Positions 529-28,712 of a DNA stretch of 64,000 bases are shown here, piece after piece (within the stretch, counting starts at the first letter, position 1; every line of letters begins with the position of its first letter). The notes beneath the pieces are model-generated. The model ran no database searches and was not told the origin of the DNA. It saw only the letters and a list, made by a program, of their open reading frames with translations. Origin of the DNA: Candidatus Gastranaerophilales bacterium. GTDB lineage: Bacteria; Cyanobacteriota; Vampirovibrionia; Gastranaerophilales; Gastranaerophilaceae. The DNA lies in contig CALUQY010000006.1 in the NCBI GenBank assembly GCA_944323035.1, positions 1 to 64,000 of the forward strand, written 5' to 3'. A program made the position numbers and the translations under genes.

Positions 529-3500
529 ATGTACATCAAAAATCTTGAGATAGATAATTTTAAATCATTTGCCAACAAGTCCGAAATCCCTATGCTGGAA
601 GGGTTTACTACTATTTCAGGGCCGAACGGTTCCGGGAAAAGTAACATTATAGATAGCATTTTATTTGCCTTAGGGCTTGCAAACGCCAGCGAACTGCGCG
701 CCGAAAATTTGTCACACTTTATTTCAACTTATACAAAACGGAATGAAGCCTATGTAAAAGTGACTTTCGGGGATGTTGAAGAGGGAAAAGACCTTTCTAT
801 TGCCAGAAAAATTCGCAAGACAAGTCAGGGCTATGCAAGTACGTATTACCTGAACGATACTGTTTCAACGCTGACGAACGTCCATGCAATATTAGAGCAG
901 TACAATGTCACGCCTAACAGCTACAACGTAATGATGCAGGGCGATGTAACCGGAATTACAAACTGTTCTCCGCGCAACAGAAGAAAAATTATTGACGAAA
1001 TCGCAGGCATCGCTGATTTTGACAGAAGAATAGAACAGTCAACCGAACAGCTTAACACCGTTGAGCAACGTGTCGACAGGGCTTCCGTAATTCTGAATGA
1101 GGTCGATAAAGTTCTTGAACAATTGAAGGAAGAACGTGAAGTCGCACTTAAATATCAGGCTTTACGAGAAGAAAAACAGGGACTTGAGAGTCAGGTTAAC
1201 AAAGTTAAATTTTTTGATTTAAAACGCAGCCTTGAGCAGGCACACCTTAACATACTTGATTTTACTAAAAAACGCAAGGAAGAAGAGGTTAAAAACAAGG
1301 ATTTAGAAGAAAAACTTGCGCTTTTAAAGAAAAAATATGAGGAAGTCTGTGCGCAGGTCAAAGAAAAAGGCGAAGCCGAGCAGTTAGAACTCAAGCGCCG
1401 CGAAGAAGGTATCAAAGGCGACATTGAGCGAAAAGAACATGCAATTAATTATGCGGAAAAACAAATTCATGACGGGTTAAAAGTCATTGCCAATTCTAAC
1501 ACGGCGATTGAAAACAATACCGCAAAAATTGAGGACTTCAAACTTAAAATTAACCTGAAAGAAGATGAAATCAAAATTATTCAGGAAAATATTAAGGAAA
1601 AAGAGGACGAACTGCGCAAAATCAACGAAGATATGACAGGTTTGAGCGACTCCTCAGATTTGCATATTGAAAAACGCAACAATTTAAGAAAAGAACTTGA
1701 CGCTTTAAAAGAAGAAGAATACAAACTTTTACAGGAAAAACTTCCGCTTGAAACAGAGCTTAAAAACCTTACGACAACTCTTGAAAAAACAAAATCAGAT
1801 CTTGCGGAACTTCAAAAGTCAAAAGACAGTTTTTCTTCTGACTTTGAGCTAAAAACAACACTTGTAAGCCAGCTTGAGCAGGAATTGCAGGATTTCAAAA
1901 ATATTCAGCAAAAAACCAGAGATGAGCTGGAAGTTGTAAAAAACGAAATTAGCGATTGCGAATACAAGGTTAATATTGCGCACAAAAAAGTTTCCCAGAT
2001 GGAGGCGAGGAAGCAGTTTGCGGAAGAAAATCTCGGACGTGTAATCGACACGATTATGAACGCAAAACTCCGCGGGGTTCACGCACCGCTTGTTCAGCTC
2101 GGAACGGTTGATAAGGAATATTCAACCGCAATGGAGGTGGCATTCGGCGGGAGAATGGCGCACATAGTTGTTGATAATGAACACGTAGCCTCCGTTGCGA
2201 TTGAACTTCTGCTCTCAACCGGCGCCGGACGCGCAACATTTATTCCGCTCAATAAAATTAAACCCGCTCCGACACGCCTGCAGCTTCCAAAAGATAAAGG
2301 CGTTATTGACTATGCGATAAACCTTGTCGACTTTGATGATATTTACCTTGATGCCTTCTACTACGCGGTCGGCGACACTTTAGTAGTAGAGGATAAAGAA
2401 TGCGCTTCAAAACTTATCGGCAAGTACAGAATGGTTACGCTCAACGGCGAACTCTTTGAAAAATCAGGTTCTATCACAGGCGGTAAATTGAAACGCTCAG
2501 GGCTTTCGTTCAGCCAGAATGATGATGAAGAACTTAACAAATGCAATGCCCGTCTGAAAGAGCTGGAAACAACTTATGCGAACCTTAAACAAAAACGCCT
2601 TGATCTGGAAAATAAATTAGACAGGCTCCGCGCTCAATATTCTGACGCAAACACTGAATATTCCAAGGCAAAAATTGAACTTGCGAATATGAAAAATAAT
2701 TTCGACAACAGCGAGAAATTCCTCAAAGAAAAATCCGATTTTATCGCGGTAAGCGAGCCGAGAATTGCTGAAATTAACAATATCTTAGACAAGCTTGAAG
2801 ATAAAAACGTCAAAATTTATGACAAAATCACAATTCTTGATGATGAAATCAAGGAAATTGAAAAACTCATTGATGATACCGATCTCAAAGAGCTTAAAGA
2901 AAAAACAAGCGGCGTTGAAGCCGAAATTAAACGTTTGCAGGCAAAATTAATGAGCGCAAACGGTGAAAAAGATGACTTTAAACGCCAGATTTCCTTCTTT
3001 GAAGATGTAATTCTCTCAAAAAAAGAAGAAATTAAAACAATTGAAGCCAACAATGTTAAGCTTGAAGAGGACAAAGTCCGTTACAAAAACGATATCACAG
3101 GACTTAATGAACGTCTGGAAGAGTTAAAAATTCAGCTTACAGAAATCGAATCTAAGCTTGGCGAACTTCTGACGCAGCGTGACAGCCTGAATAACGATTT
3201 AATTGAGCTTGAAAAACAAAAAGTCCTGAAACAAGCCGACATTGACCGCATCGGCGAGCAGATTGAATCCTTCAAGTCCCGCCGCCGCGAGCTGGAACCG
3301 CTTTTAGATGCAGCAAAAGCAGATCTTGAAAATTCCGGCGTTGATATTGAAAAACTTGAACCGGTTGAGATTTCGATTGAAGAAATTACAAACAAAATCC
3401 AGCGGCTTGAAAAACGTATGGCGGATCTTGGCGACGTTAACATGCGCGCAATTACGACCTACGAAGAAAATCTCACACGCCAGCAGGAGCTTAAAGAAAA

Positions 3501-9849: not shown

Positions 9850-9868
9850 AATATTTAAGGAATTAAAA

Positions 9869-10001
9869 TACGAGGAAACGGGGTGAATATCCCCGGCTGT
9901 GCCGCAACCGTAAAAGCCGGAATGCTCAAATTTTCACTATTGCTGCGTCGCACGGCAAGGTAAAGAAAAATTTTTGCTTTCCTCAACAACACGAGGACTG
10001 G
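9869..10001 (+). ncRNA. Cobalamin riboswitch
   Basis: The segment GGGGTGAATATCCCC, then CTGTGCCGCAACCGTAA and AGCCGGAATGC (about 9880-9924), follows the conserved core of cobalamin riboswitches (GGTG-AAT-CC, CTGT-CCGCAAC-GTAA, B12-box-like GCCGGAATGC). GAGGAAA (9872-9878) can pair with TTTCCTC (9978-9984) as the closing stem. CACGAGGACTGG lies directly before the ATG at 10002, so ligand binding could mask the ribosome site. The long side arm of the AdoCbl class is missing, suggesting a compact variant. It would control the three unknown genes that follow. Confidence 0.82.
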
Positions 10002-10664
10002 ATGCAATTAACTCTTAACACTCAAAAAAGCAATGTCGGAACCTGTCCGCACGGCTTGCCGCTTGGAAGCTGCCCGATTTGTAACGGCATGTCAGGCGGC
10101 GGCGCAAAAAAAGCTGATTTTTCTGCCAAACCCGGTGAGATGAGCTGGAATGAGTGCGCTGCAATCGGAGCATTTTTAAAAGCGCAGAAACTAGCAAGAG
10201 AAACAAGAGCGCAAGACGCCCAAAATTTTGCCCAGCGGCTTGCGGATTTTCAAAAGGGACTTGATAATATGCAGCAGCGTTTAAGCCTGCTTAACTCTGC
10301 AATAAGTACAAAACTTCCGCGCATAATCAGTACACCCCTGACTTTTATCGTTCAAACGGTTCTCCAGCGCCCTGTCGAGATTATGAAAGCTCTGCCGCAG
10401 GTTATAACAAATCTTTCTCAAAAAATTGCCGACATCAGCGCTAAAATCACATCTGTTCTCGGTGAAATCAAAACCGCAATAAACAAAAAAGTTTCAGAGG
10501 CTTTCAGCGGGCTTAAAAAGAAAGTAAAATCACTTTTTGCACTCTTTGAAACATTAAACTTACACAACGAGGACAAAAAAATTGATGAAGAAAAACGAAT
10601 TTTTGATCTCAAAAAGTTCATACATTCACTAATCAGGAAAGAAAAAGACGATGAAACTCCATGA
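10002..10664 (+). CDS. Unknown protein with N-terminal Cys-His knuckle
   Basis: 220 residues, no family recognised. Near residues 14-28 it reads CPHGLPLGSCPICNG: C-x-H and C-P-I-C groups that could hold one zinc ion. Residues 45-100 form a helical, Gln-rich segment. The rest is amphipathic helix with moderately hydrophobic stretches (PRIISTPLTFIVQTVLQRPV; a helix of the type KIADISAKI), and the C-terminus is very basic. It is the first gene after the cobalamin riboswitch and overlaps the next by 14 bases, so the two are probably made together. The context suggests a B12-responsive role; none is shown by the sequence. Confidence 0.75.
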   Translation: MQLTLNTQKSNVGTCPHGLPLGSCPICNGMSGGGAKKADFSAKPGEMSWNECAAIGAFLKAQKLARETRAQDAQNFAQRLADFQKGLDNMQQRLSLLNSAISTKLPRIISTPLTFIVQTVLQRPVEIMKALPQVITNLSQKIADISAKITSVLGEIKTAINKKVSEAFSGLKKKVKSLFALFETLNLHNEDKKIDEEKRIFDLKKFIHSLIRKEKDDETP

Positions 10665-12054
10665 CTTCTCAGACGGCGAAACCATAAGGCGCCAGCGCAA
10701 TTTAACGACCAATCAAAAGAAAAATAACAGTACAACGCAGGAAGGTGTTATTGTAAACAACTTTTGTAAATCAGAATGCAATTTCGACGACATCTGCGAC
10801 AGCCTGATAATTTCTGACAACGCACACGCACCGGAAGAATTAAAGGAAGCTGTAAAAGAAAAAAGCCTTTTGCCAATAAGCGGAATCGCACTCGGTGTAA
10901 TGGGTGCGATTGCAGGTCTGACTTATTTTATCAGCCGTAGCACAAAAAATCTTGCGAAAACGGACAAAAAGCAGGTTCTGCCAACCCTCACCCGCCATGT
11001 TGCACTGAACGAGGAAACGCATCAGGCACTCTATCGCATGGTTCGCAACCCTAACCGCCAGACAATTCTTGCCGGAAGCGGGGTTCTCGCTCTCACGGCA
11101 ACCGCGTTTATGGGCAAAACCTTTTTTGACGGGTTCAAAGAAGTCTGGGTAAGAAAAAAAGAAGCGGACATTCAAAAAAATCTGCAGGAAAAACTTATTG
11201 AGGTAGAAGCGCGCACTTTCGGCGGGAAAATGCAGATTATCCGTAACATGCTCTCTGAGCGTACCGCAGAGTTTGACAAAACTCTGAATTTCGGGCACAC
11301 ACCGCAACTGAAAAAAGAAGAGAATAATAAAAATTATTTTCTTCTCGGTGCACTAACATTTGCCGGAATTATAGGACTCGGATTTTTATCAATAAAAAAT
11401 CTTACCCGCGGGAAACAGTATCTGGAAGAAGGCAGCAAGGCGCTTAAAAATACTATCCCTGAAATCATTAAAAAGTCAACAAAAGAAACAATGAATGAGG
11501 ATAGGGAAATCTTGAAAAATCTTTTCACAGCACTCGGTACCCCTAAGAAATATATCAAAGAGCATCTGCAAAATCTTAACTGGTCAAAAACAGACATCAA
11601 GGATTTTGAGGATGAATTAATGACCTCAACCGCACGGGTAGAACGGGCTCTGGGCGGGGACGGTACCGATAAACCAACCTATTATTCGCACGTAGATGAC
11701 TACCGCGCGCACCTTTATAATTACCTGCTTGATACGGATAACAAACAGTTTAAACAGCTTTTCTTCGGTATTGCGGGGCTGAGCGCCGCGGGTTATGCCG
11801 GAAAGCTTACCGGTGATGCGATAAAAGAAGTTCAGGTAAAAAAATACAACGCACAAACAGAACTGGAACTTCAAAAGCGCCTCGTTTCAACAGAACTGCG
11901 TAACTTTAAGGCAAAAAAAGATGCAGCTATCAACCCGCTTGTAGAAGAATTTTACAAACAACAAAAAGAAGGAAAATCAAAAGAAGAATTAAAAGTCATT
12001 GCCGACAATATTCTCTATGAAATCAAGAATGGAGCGCCATTTGTGTACTCTTAG
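10651..12054 (+). CDS. Unknown membrane protein with internal duplication
   Basis: 467 residues, no family recognised. There are four hydrophobic segments: near residues 75-95 (GIALGVMGAIAGLTYF), 142-158 (SGVLALTATAFMGKTF), 230-246 (LLGALTFAGIIGLGFL) and 370-390 (FGIAGLSAAGYAGKLT). The part after segment 2 and the part after segment 4 align: GK-x3-D-x2-KEV-x-V-x-K and then LQ-x2-L-x3-E-x-R-x-F-x2-K, pointing to an internal duplication. It overlaps both neighbours and probably belongs to the riboswitch-controlled unit. Subcellular site: inner membrane (inferred). Confidence 0.75.
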   Translation: MKLHDFSDGETIRRQRNLTTNQKKNNSTTQEGVIVNNFCKSECNFDDICDSLIISDNAHAPEELKEAVKEKSLLPISGIALGVMGAIAGLTYFISRSTKNLAKTDKKQVLPTLTRHVALNEETHQALYRMVRNPNRQTILAGSGVLALTATAFMGKTFFDGFKEVWVRKKEADIQKNLQEKLIEVEARTFGGKMQIIRNMLSERTAEFDKTLNFGHTPQLKKEENNKNYFLLGALTFAGIIGLGFLSIKNLTRGKQYLEEGSKALKNTIPEIIKKSTKETMNEDREILKNLFTALGTPKKYIKEHLQNLNWSKTDIKDFEDELMTSTARVERALGGDGTDKPTYYSHVDDYRAHLYNYLLDTDNKQFKQLFFGIAGLSAAGYAGKLTGDAIKEVQVKKYNAQTELELQKRLVSTELRNFKAKKDAAINPLVEEFYKQQKEGKSKEELKVIADNILYEIKNGAPFVYS

Positions 12055-12478
12055 TATTAACACATATTTACAAACGAATCGTCCATACACCATTCCGGCC
12101 AGACCCGCCGGAAATTTCAGAGTGTTTCCGCAGCTTACAACCGACTATTTTGTAAAACAGGGGGAAAAATCTTTTCCTGCCATGGCCGATAACCTCAAAA
12201 ACGGAAAAAATGTTGTCGAAACTTTATACATTTTAGACAGAATTCAGGAAAATAAAACCGGCGATACCGCAAAGCTTTATCCCGAACTTTCACGCTACAA
12301 CAAGACTAAAAATCCCGAAATCCAAACGTTTCTTGCCGGGATTTACCGGAAAACCCAAATCCCTGATGCCTTCGGCCCTCTCGTTGCAATGCTTATACAA
12401 AATTCACTCAACCCGCCCAAAACCTACTTTGACCCGAACGAAGAAATCGGCGGCGCAATTGTTTCATACTTTAAATAA
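12029..12478 (+). CDS. Unknown 149-residue protein
   Basis: No family recognised. The frame is open from an ATG at 11999, but that would overlap the upstream gene by 56 bases. The ATG at 12029 (MERHLCTLSINTYLQ) leaves a 26-base overlap, and the true start could be later still. The body is mostly helical with PAMADNLKNGKNVVETLYIL and FLAGIYRKTQIPDAFGPLVA, a pattern that resembles a single HEAT-like helical pair. It is last in the group after the cobalamin riboswitch, and a new promoter-like TATAAT appears after it near 12499. Confidence 0.65.
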   Translation: MERHLCTLSINTYLQTNRPYTIPARPAGNFRVFPQLTTDYFVKQGEKSFPAMADNLKNGKNVVETLYILDRIQENKTGDTAKLYPELSRYNKTKNPEIQTFLAGIYRKTQIPDAFGPLVAMLIQNSLNPPKTYFDPNEEIGGAIVSYFK

Positions 12479-23928: not shown

Positions 23929-26439
23929 CTATAACTTTTGAAAATTCTCGTCAAAGAAGGCAATACGTGTAATATTAAACATCACACCCGGTGCGATTAA
24001 TTCCATTAAGGCGTCAGCTCTTACTGCCGGAATTGCACTTCCCTGACCGGTTTTTAAGATTATGAACAGACAACCGTCAACAAACTTGTATGATTTTATT
24101 GAATTTTTAATGTCTGTTTTTTGAAGTAAACCTTTTTTGTTTTTCTTCTCAATAAAAATTTCCTGAGAAGATAAAACCTTGTCTGTATTGTAGCACAAAG
24201 TTTCAAAATCGTAAAGGTCTTTGTTAAAGATTTCGACTTTATATTCTGCCCACTGAGCAGTGTTGTCAATTGATTTAAAGCTTCTGTCAATTTTCTTAAT
24301 TTCAATAATTTTGCATCCTTCTGGAAGCACTTTCTCTAACTTTAGTTGGAGATTTTCGGGTGACAAATCTTCCCAGAGATCAATATCAACAAGTTCGCAG
24401 ATACTTTCGCAGAAAAGCGGCAGCGCAACACCCATTGAAACCCTCATTGTCGGGTTATAGCCATAAGAAAATGCCACCTTCAGCCCGCTTCTTGAAAGTG
24501 ATTTCAGAAAAGTGTTCTGCCAGTCAAGATGCGAAAAATATTTCAAAATTCCGCATTTGGTAAGTTTTATCCGGTACCGGAACGGGACAGCATTGTGTCC
24601 TTCGGGTTTTTGCGGTGTTTTCGGAACAATTTGCTTGGCATTCTCATATTTTGGCGCAAGAACTTTTCTTGTTTTCAAATTAGGACAAACCCCGCAGCCG
24701 ACACATTTATGCTCGCAGGTTGGCGTCAGGTGAAATTCGTTTGAACTTTCTGCCATTGCCGCTTTGTATTCATCAACAAACCACGATTTGTTAACGCCGA
24801 TGTCCACAAAATCCCACGGCAGCGGCTCATCAAGCGAATAAGTTTTCTGCGCCAAGTCAGCAAGCGAAAACCCAAGTTCCTCTGCTGTTTCTTTCCAGAG
24901 GTTTTTGTCAAAATTTTCACCCCACGCGTCAAGATAGCAGCCTTTCTTATAAAGCGCTTCAATATATTCACAAAGTTTTTCATCACCGCGTGTCAAAACG
25001 GCCTCGATTTCTGACACATATTTTTCGTGATAATTAATCTTCAAGCCTTTAATGTGTTTCGTTTTATCCTTGAGATAGTGAATATGCTCCGTCACTTCGT
25101 CCAAATTCATCTGAGGGCACCACTGGAACGGCGTGAACGGTTTCGGAACAAAAATCGACAGAGTACAGGTTAAATCAAGCGAATGCTGCAACCCTTTTTC
25201 TTTTTTAATAAGTTTTGCCTTATATTTAATTTTGTTCAGAAGCTCCGCAAGCTCGTCCATATCCGCCAAAGTTTCGGTCGGAAGCCCGCAGATAAAATAA
25301 AATTTCACCCTCGACCAGCCGTTTTCATAAAGCGTCAGAACCGCGTGCAAAATCTGTTCTTCCGAGATATTTTTCTTGATAACATTGCGGAGCCGCTGGC
25401 TTCCGGCCTCAGGCGCAAGCGTCATCGTGGATTTTCTGACGCTCTGAACAAGATTTGCAAGCTCCAGATTAAATCCGTCAATCCTCTGGCTCGGAAGCGA
25501 AACAGAAATTTTACGTTCATCAAAATCAACAGCAAGCTCTTTGATAACCTCTTTTATATTTGAATAATCGTTTGATGAAAGCGAAAGAAGAGAATATTCA
25601 TCATAACCGGTATTGTTGACAAGTTCTTTTGTAATTTTAACAATTTCCTCACCCGTGCGCTCACGAATAGGCAAAGTCACATGCCCCGGCTGGCAGAAAC
25701 GACACATTCTCCCGCACCCGCGGCGGATTTCTACAACCGCACGGTCCTGAACTGATGATGAAAACGGTATCGGATAACTTTTCGGCGCGGTTTCGTATTT
25801 CAACTGCGCAATGCGTTTTTTAACTCTGCCGCCGACTGACGAGCTCCACCTGCCGGAATTTTCACCCTCAACAAGCGCTTTGATACGCTCTGTCCGAGGC
25901 AAACCTTTGGTACGCTCAAGAATTTCGCACGCCTCAACAATGCTGTCCTCGCCGTCGCCAATCATAAAGACATCAATAAAATCCGCCATTGGAAGCGGGT
26001 TAAAAGTACACGGCCCGCCCGCCATAATTATCGGGTCATCCTCGCCGCGATCTTCATTCCTATACGGAATCCCGCTCATCTCAAGCATTTTCAACACAGT
26101 CGGATAAGATAATTCATATTGCAGCGAAAACCCGACAGCATCAAACTCTTTTAACGGGCGCTTACTCTCCAGCCCGTAGAGCGTTTCCGGCTTAAAATCC
26201 TTCTCCGGCGCATAAGCCCTGTCCGCCATAAACTCCGCGCGTTCATTCAGACAGTTATAAAGCACTCTCAAGCCGAGGTTGCTTATTCCAATCTCGTACT
26301 TGTCCGGAAATACAAGCGCAAACCTCACCTTCGCACTGTCAAAATCCTTTTTCACAGACAAAAACTCATCACCAACATACTGATAAGGCTTATTTGCCTT
26401 AAACAGCGCTTCGTGGTACTTTCTAAAAAAACATGTCAT
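23929..26439 (-). CDS. Fused radical SAM / DUF2344 protein
   Basis: 836 residues, matching the TIGR03960-type radical SAM protein fused to a C-terminal TIGR03936/DUF2344 domain. An N-terminal B12-binding-like region leads to the [4Fe-4S] motif C-x3-C-x2-C (CGRMCRFC near residue 241). A second Cys cluster, CEHKCVGCGVCPN, is near residue 575. The last 200 residues begin YRIKLTKCGILKYFSHLDWQ. Family members sit next to RNase E/G, as here, and are thought to modify RNA or a ribosomal component, but the reaction is not established. The gap to rne is 19 bases. Confidence 0.9.
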   Translation of the reverse strand: MTCFFRKYHEALFKANKPYQYVGDEFLSVKKDFDSAKVRFALVFPDKYEIGISNLGLRVLYNCLNERAEFMADRAYAPEKDFKPETLYGLESKRPLKEFDAVGFSLQYELSYPTVLKMLEMSGIPYRNEDRGEDDPIIMAGGPCTFNPLPMADFIDVFMIGDGEDSIVEACEILERTKGLPRTERIKALVEGENSGRWSSSVGGRVKKRIAQLKYETAPKSYPIPFSSSVQDRAVVEIRRGCGRMCRFCQPGHVTLPIRERTGEEIVKITKELVNNTGYDEYSLLSLSSNDYSNIKEVIKELAVDFDERKISVSLPSQRIDGFNLELANLVQSVRKSTMTLAPEAGSQRLRNVIKKNISEEQILHAVLTLYENGWSRVKFYFICGLPTETLADMDELAELLNKIKYKAKLIKKEKGLQHSLDLTCTLSIFVPKPFTPFQWCPQMNLDEVTEHIHYLKDKTKHIKGLKINYHEKYVSEIEAVLTRGDEKLCEYIEALYKKGCYLDAWGENFDKNLWKETAEELGFSLADLAQKTYSLDEPLPWDFVDIGVNKSWFVDEYKAAMAESSNEFHLTPTCEHKCVGCGVCPNLKTRKVLAPKYENAKQIVPKTPQKPEGHNAVPFRYRIKLTKCGILKYFSHLDWQNTFLKSLSRSGLKVAFSYGYNPTMRVSMGVALPLFCESICELVDIDLWEDLSPENLQLKLEKVLPEGCKIIEIKKIDRSFKSIDNTAQWAEYKVEIFNKDLYDFETLCYNTDKVLSSQEIFIEKKNKKGLLQKTDIKNSIKSYKFVDGCLFIILKTGQGSAIPAVRADALMELIAPGVMFNITRIAFFDENFQKL

Positions 26440-27734: not shown

Positions 27735-28685
27735 TTACAAAGAGCCTATAACTTTTGCAAATAAGTCATAAAGCAAAACCCTGTATTCAGTATCCACTGG
27801 TGTGTTAATACCTAAAGCACGTTTTACAATATATCCGCCATTCAAATATGCTTCACGCTCATTGAGAGCTGTAAGGCGCGAATGTTCAAAAACCGTTTTT
27901 CTATCAAGGTTAGGGAACTTCAATGCGGCATTATCTACAGAGGCCAAAAACGTACGGGCAAGAAAGTCCTCTGCAGGCATATTTACCTGATTAATGTACA
28001 TCTCATTTAAAACCTTAGTGCTTATAGATTTAACAGTACGCGGTATGATATCTTTTTTATCAAGAGCCAGCAATAAAGGCTGCTGCATTCGGGTTTCTGC
28101 CTCATTAAATATGTTACTCATTGAACGCAACGTATCAATTTTCACTTCCAATGGCAAATCTTTATCTAATAAATTTTGAATAAATTGGCGGTGTGAGATT
28201 CTGTCAGAAGATTCTTCCTGAAAAACATGCATCATTTCATGAGAAGCTTCATCCATAAAAATTAAACGATTCTTGATATCATCCTGCGATGGTATATTAA
28301 GGAAAATATTTTTCTGACTCTCGACAACCTCCTTCATATCTTTAATGGTATAACCAAAATTAAAATGAGCAGAATGATACGCTGCGAGGTCTGCAAACTC
28401 CGGCGGGACTTCCTGCATTGATTTAACTAAAAGTCCGGGAGAATATTTTTGAACAATTGCGCCGAGGTCATCCAATGAAAGGGTTTTGGAATTCAAAATA
28501 TAACTATAAAGTTCCCGCAAAAAAGGGGTTCTCTTTTCAGCAAAACTCATATTAGCCCCGAAGGGAATCTTATTTGATTTTACAAAAACATCATTTCCGG
28601 TTTTTGAATATGCGGGGCTAAAACGCGGAGTTGTGACCGATTTCGGAGTCGTCAAATTATTACTAGAAACTGCAGTTATTTTCAT
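27735..28685 (-). CDS. Unknown 316-residue protein
   Basis: Starts MKITAVSSNNLTTPKSVTT, with a Ser/Thr/Pro-rich N-terminus and KIPFGANMSF near residue 45. In related gut bacteria many unknown proteins share a short N-terminal region with an x-F-G-A motif (recollection, not checked here). The rest is helical, with ESSDRISHRQFIQNLLDKD and NEREAYLNGGYIVKRALGIN. The sequence MDEASHEMMHVF near residue 142 has H-x3-H (in HEMMH) and resembles a zinc-peptidase motif, but a full metzincin signature is lacking. The frame is open to 28706, but the ATG at 28685 better fits such proteins. Confidence 0.65.
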   Translation of the reverse strand: MKITAVSSNNLTTPKSVTTPRFSPAYSKTGNDVFVKSNKIPFGANMSFAEKRTPFLRELYSYILNSKTLSLDDLGAIVQKYSPGLLVKSMQEVPPEFADLAAYHSAHFNFGYTIKDMKEVVESQKNIFLNIPSQDDIKNRLIFMDEASHEMMHVFQEESSDRISHRQFIQNLLDKDLPLEVKIDTLRSMSNIFNEAETRMQQPLLLALDKKDIIPRTVKSISTKVLNEMYINQVNMPAEDFLARTFLASVDNAALKFPNLDRKTVFEHSRLTALNEREAYLNGGYIVKRALGINTPVDTEYRVLLYDLFAKVIGSL

Positions 28686-28712
28686 AATACTGTTAACTTT
28701 TCTCAAAATTAA

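Follow-up and report, generated by a model that had tools for sequence, protein, structure and literature searches.

We propose that an AdoCbl-II riboswitch of the OFF type controls an operon of three proteins that is specific to the Gastranaerophilales, and that these proteins probably cooperate at the inner membrane. The probability of this reading as a whole is put at about 0.4. The narrower joint claim, that a genuine cobalamin-class riboswitch is linked here to a conserved target, is almost certain. The class of the switch is known, and the families of its target proteins appear, judging by their sequences, to be new. The features were located in a stretch of 64,000 nucleotides (the window) from a Candidatus Gastranaerophilus species and are given in Table 1.

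Table 1. Features of the riboswitch leader and the three-gene operon in the window
Feature	Positions	Strand	Basis
AdoCbl-II cobalamin riboswitch aptamer	9859-9934	+	Rfam RF01689 and compensatory P4 pairs
Candidate P13, a hairpin beyond the 3′ end of the aptamer (loop could kiss L5)	9940-9958	+	read from sequence
Candidate ribosome-site hairpin TCCTC/GAGGA	9980-9997	+	local folding in genus mates
Gene 1, 220 aa with a CPHGxPxGxCPxC knuckle near the N-terminus	10002-10664	+	ORF
Gene 2, membrane protein of 467 aa with an internal duplication and long helices	10651-12054	+	ORF
Gene 3, predicted helical adaptor of about 145 aa, armadillo/HEAT-like	about 12041-12478	+	ORF

An earlier note on this DNA, made without database searches, had described the riboswitch core as clear and had named a search with the Rfam cobalamin covariance models as a check. 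The search returned a significant match to RF01689 of 47.9 bits (E 1.7e-8), with a gathering cut-off of 36.5. This is the sole Rfam match at gathering threshold in the 64-kb window, and the aptamer is the only AdoCbl-II copy in its own genome of 1.94 Mb. Its end is separated by 67 nt from the ATG of gene 1. The aptamer resembles the RF01689 class in its above-cut-off sequence and structure, its conserved core and the anatomy of an OFF-type leader, but differs from it in the target proteins, which are absent from the known target lists. Three pairs of P4 show compensatory changes, the two sides having changed together in 10, 17 and 19 of 35 aptamers. The strands of P3 covary as well when the aligned aptamers are judged by eye (GAG/CTC, AAG/CTT, GGG/CCC).

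The linkage between the riboswitch and the operon was assessed in 59 genomes of the genus, the family and the order, which include Candidatus Gastranaerophilus phascolarctosicola in the same genus as well as other named Gastranaerophilales. Gene 1 is present in 48 of them, and in 47 of these the riboswitch lies just upstream of it on the same strand, mostly at a distance of 32-199 nt. The pairing that the earlier note had proposed to follow in relatives is thus retained with a single exception, G053 (locus L076). Neither this check nor the model search refuted the note's reading. The 47 riboswitches comprise 43 AdoCbl-II matches, including that of the window, and four aptamers with enlarged loops (L058, L071, L074 and L077), which were recovered by a covariance model built on the 35 aptamers. 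The gene order 1-2(-3) is kept across families f1, f3, f5, f6 and f7, and the outer flanks differ between genera. Strong matches to gene 2 are confined to the Gastranaerophilales among 240 genomes of the class, the matches in other orders being short and no better than E 8e-5. Since the linkage is kept, the flanks vary and gene 2 is limited to the order, the riboswitch and the operon are regarded as one conserved unit, which as far as sampled is restricted to the Gastranaerophilales. The composition of the complex is not invariant, because no gene 3 could be recognised in family f3 or in a few others, and in two genera, represented by G030 (L047) and G035 (L050), a second gene 3 replaces gene 2 behind the same riboswitch.

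In the window the operon is preceded by a gene for asparaginase II and followed by genes for a 749-aa protein and a recN-like product. The 749-aa protein is a probable glycoside hydrolase, without a significant family match. The three-gene layout had been described accurately before: there is an overlap of 14 nt between genes 1 and 2, and gene 3 in turn starts before gene 2 ends. For gene 3 the TTG at 12041 is preferred over the TTG at 11999 as the start codon, as it has GGAG upstream and is replaced by ATG in relatives.

None of the three products has a convincing family match in Pfam, NCBIfam, PHROG, PADLOC or the sequences of the PDB, where only weak helix and coiled-coil matches were obtained. 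Among the anti-phage families of PADLOC, gene 1 gave weak coiled-coil matches only (E 0.002 and 0.006), and genes 2 and 3 gave none. Pfam and NCBIfam likewise revealed no credible homology of genes 1-3 to proteins of B12 synthesis or transport, to metE or nrd, or to cobalt transport.

The knuckle of gene 1, read previously as CPHG/CPIC, is real: its residues C15, P16, H17, G18, C24, P25 and C27 do not vary among 34 homologues, and C15, H17, C24 and C27 form a plausible metal site. Beyond the knuckle the protein consists of long amphipathic helices, and the window protein has neither a clear membrane segment nor a signal peptide. Its matches to apolipoprotein, tape-measure and similar families were attributed to these amphipathic helices and not to kinship. 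Gene 2 had been taken for a duplicated four-helix membrane protein. The duplication is confirmed by the alignment of one half with the other (hhalign probability 97.9%, E 3.8e-13). Hydrophobic segments occupy all four positions where membrane helices would be expected, but only two of them exceed a simple hydropathy threshold in the window protein. The AlphaFold2 model of gene 2 has low confidence (pLDDT 65) and places long helices after each membrane segment (136-209, 231-275 and 365-439). The model of gene 3 is considerably better, with a pLDDT of 87.1 overall and about 97 over residues 30-147. Its best structural neighbours are armadillo/HEAT proteins at a Z score of about 11, a range that is also common among unrelated helical repeats. 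Gene 3 is therefore predicted from its model to be a helical-repeat adaptor, most like armadillo/HEAT proteins; the shared fold does not show a function. It shares with the armadillo/HEAT adaptors the predicted all-helical superhelix but has no sequence relationship to them, the best Foldseek E value for this fold being 0.29. The Foldseek matches to the HEAT domains of QueG, CpcE/CpcF and deoxyhypusine hydroxylase (E 0.3-0.9) were given no functional weight. A short N-terminal motif of the ISFG/ITFN type, possibly a lineage-specific signal, was seen in several hypothetical proteins of the order (window 27735-28706 on the minus strand, L112 and L058).

The direction of switching was derived from the leader. 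The candidate P13 hairpin reads TTGCTGCG TCG CACGGCAA, and a kissing interaction of its loop with L5 is plausible; the L5/L13 score of 9.83 against 9.53 for shuffled sequences was not significant, with 489 of 5000 shuffles equally good. The Shine-Dalgarno sequence of gene 1, GAGGA (9993-9997), forms the 3′ arm of the candidate ribosome-site hairpin. Local folding found this hairpin in the genus mates L032, L033 and L036 (-8.3 to -8.5 kcal/mol); in the window's own leader it is short, and the automatic search chose another hairpin. In most genera the leader closes with a hairpin whose 3′ arm includes the ribosome site. This arm often reads AGAGGAUUUUUUAAUG, as it does in many genera besides that of the window, and in many genera the hairpin is followed by a U tract and hence terminator-like. 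Such a hairpin could affect translation, transcription or both. Family f6 (L064) has a terminator-like hairpin distinct from the ribosome site. A hairpin close to the start codon was found in 34 of the 35 leaders examined. In the leader of L035 (G004), an insert of about 100 nt lies inside the hairpin of the expression platform, and the riboswitch is otherwise conserved.

The 5′ arm of the leader hairpin pairs with the 5′ strand of its own aptamer at -5.66 kcal/mol and with that of other loci at -4.77; only 1 of 5000 shuffles was as good, a statistic that ignores kinship. Pairing of the 5′ arm with the 3′ strand of the aptamer was not significant (472 of 5000 shuffles as good). The better-than-shuffled complementarity to the own 5′ strand suggests that the leader is a three-way switch. 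In repressing corrinoid riboswitches the bound state favours a hairpin at the ribosome-binding site or a terminator hairpin, and one activating case has also been described (PMC10653944). From the anatomy of the leader hairpin and this model, it is quite likely that the operon is shut by corrinoid. With corrinoid bound, the hairpin would form over the ribosome site, terminator-like in many genera, and turn the operon off. Under corrinoid scarcity, the 5′ strand of the aptamer would instead hold the 5′ arm of the hairpin, and the operon would be on.

Cobalamin riboswitches usually reveal genes of B12 synthesis, transport or replacement. As stated before, no known cobalamin-regulon gene adjoins the operon. 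Other AdoCbl-II copies in the relatives precede nrdD, btuB with btuC/btuD-like genes, metE and a cobT-like gene, and targets of the nrdD, btuB, metE and cobT type are usually repressed by corrinoid. The operon shares the riboswitch class and the genomes with these classical cobalamin regulons (btuB/btuFCD, cob/cbi, metE, nrdD and cobalt transporters), but their targets are unrelated by sequence to genes 1-3. Three further copies have unusual neighbours. A second AdoCbl-II riboswitch in G017 (L124, about 2157-2234, plus strand) lies ahead of a 94-aa orphan ORF. In G050 (L115) and G038 (L126) the gene behind the riboswitch encodes a porin-like protein of the outer membrane, about 450-470 aa long, and in G050 the next gene is CbiM-like.

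A relative of BtuB was detected in 8 of the 59 genomes, and the window's own genome lacks it. BtuB occurs in four of the 48 genomes with gene 1 and in four of the 11 without it (Fisher P 0.03, uncorrected for kinship). The operon was rejected as a simple replacement of BtuB, since this anti-correlation is weak and four genomes have both. NrdJ is present in 42 of the 59 genomes, 41 of them above the curated cut-off and one, G049, with the gene split over two contigs. The BtuR/CobA adenosyltransferase is present in 43 of the 59. Neither was found in the window's own genus. The PduO-type adenosyltransferase was found in none of the 59 genomes, and QueG was absent from the sampled genomes of the order and present only in the out-group genome. 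In the window's own genome, which is 99.9% complete, neither the large subunit of class I/II ribonucleotide reductase (PF02867) nor an NrdD of the G035 type was found, and all matches to B12-binding domains are below the curated cut-off. One of these matches lies within the window, at 23929-26439 on the minus strand, in a TIGR03960/TIGR03936 radical-SAM fusion annotated as 'B12-binding' that neighbours an RNase E/G-like gene; as the domain match is weak (22 bits), the protein may bind cobalamin or not.

Eleven genomes of five genera, including that of the window, keep gene 1 and the riboswitch, and NrdJ and BtuR were not found in them. The scores of their riboswitches are not lower than those of the others (their median is 47.3 bits, that of the others 38.7; P 0.10 for genera compared within the family). 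Because these eleven genomes keep the operon without NrdJ and BtuR, a general role as a backup of NrdJ was also rejected. As NrdJ, BtuR/PduO and QueG were not found, these genomes have little obvious use for B12.

The simplest reading of these data, inferred with weak support, is a membrane-associated complex that is active when corrinoid is scarce. In this complex the product of gene 2 would serve as a scaffold in the membrane and extend long helices into the cytosol, accompanied by a metal-knuckle protein from gene 1 and an adaptor from gene 3; together the three would constitute a machine used under corrinoid scarcity. In a lineage mostly without BtuB, this machine would most likely capture or handle corrinoid. 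Such a role, a weakly held leading guess, is suggested by the regulon and by the rarity of BtuB. Against it, genes 1-3 resemble no transporter and no corrinoid-binding protein and have no outer-membrane or secreted character, and the eleven genomes just described carry no detected NrdJ or BtuR/PduO. The earlier proposal of a new B12-linked membrane system thus stands with respect to the conserved linkage and the apparent novelty, with the function only inferred. The term 'B12-linked' has to be qualified for this genome and the ten others, which lack the adenosyltransferase families searched for and the AdoCbl enzyme. We tentatively regard the operon as encoding an order-specific, corrinoid-regulated membrane complex of three new families, which would represent either a new route of corrinoid capture or handling or a case of cobalamin sensing without use of the cofactor.

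The strongest alternative, although rather unlikely, is that the operon encodes a machine of envelope or niche adaptation, acting at the surface, in cell shape or in secretion, for which cobalamin is only a cue of the gut with no role in B12 metabolism. The retention of the operon where NrdJ, BtuR/PduO, QueG and strong B12-binding-domain proteins were not found, the undecayed riboswitches of those genomes and the scaffold-like architecture of membrane segments, long helices and adaptor are all in line with this view. However, cobalamin must enter the cell to be sensed, and entry usually goes with use. Moreover, nearly all other targets in the relatives are genes of B12 metabolism or B12 replacement, the exceptions being the 94-aa orphan and the porin-like gene. 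It is less probable that the operon stands in, independently of B12, for a process that depends on it, or supports such a process, in the manner of metE and nrdD. Both of these genes stand behind AdoCbl-II riboswitches in relatives, but genes 1-3 belong to no recognisable catalytic family, and the operon persists in genomes without NrdJ and without a MetH-like B12 domain above the cut-off. It is more improbable still that the aptamer serves a new purpose in Gastranaerophilus and the other genera without BtuR, where it would read methylcobalamin, hydroxocobalamin or imported AdoCbl and the operon would manage that form. Class II cobalamin aptamers do include forms that prefer methylcobalamin or aquocobalamin, and the aptamer is intact in the window's own genus, where BtuR and PduO are absent. 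On the other hand, no systematic difference in the core between genomes with and without BtuR is obvious to the eye in the alignment, and an unrecognised adenosyltransferase may be present. That the match arose by chance or is a decayed, non-functional remnant is barely credible: G053, the one gene-1 genome without the riboswitch, is all that speaks for it, and the model score, the conserved linkage upstream of gene 1 and the compensatory P4 pairs rule it out.

In the literature searched on the order or the Melainabacteria in connection with cobalamin or riboswitches, and on vitamin B12, no title or abstract reports the riboswitch or the operon, which is weak evidence of novelty given the incomplete coverage. 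The ppe2 gene of Mycobacterium tuberculosis is likewise a gene of uncertain function behind a B12 riboswitch (PMC11260477); it is unrelated to the genes described here, which have kept their pairing with the switch across many genera of a single order. The corrinoid-regulated membrane complex that we favour would add to the cobalamin regulon a conserved target unlike the genes of B12 metabolism. As this target occurs in a common and poorly studied order of gut bacteria, it would point to an unknown part of the gut-bacterial response to B12. The genera that keep an intact riboswitch without the known adenosyltransferases and the AdoCbl-dependent reductase include Gastranaerophilus, and the persistence of the operon without known B12 enzymes or adenosyltransferases raises a testable question, namely what is sensed there, and why.
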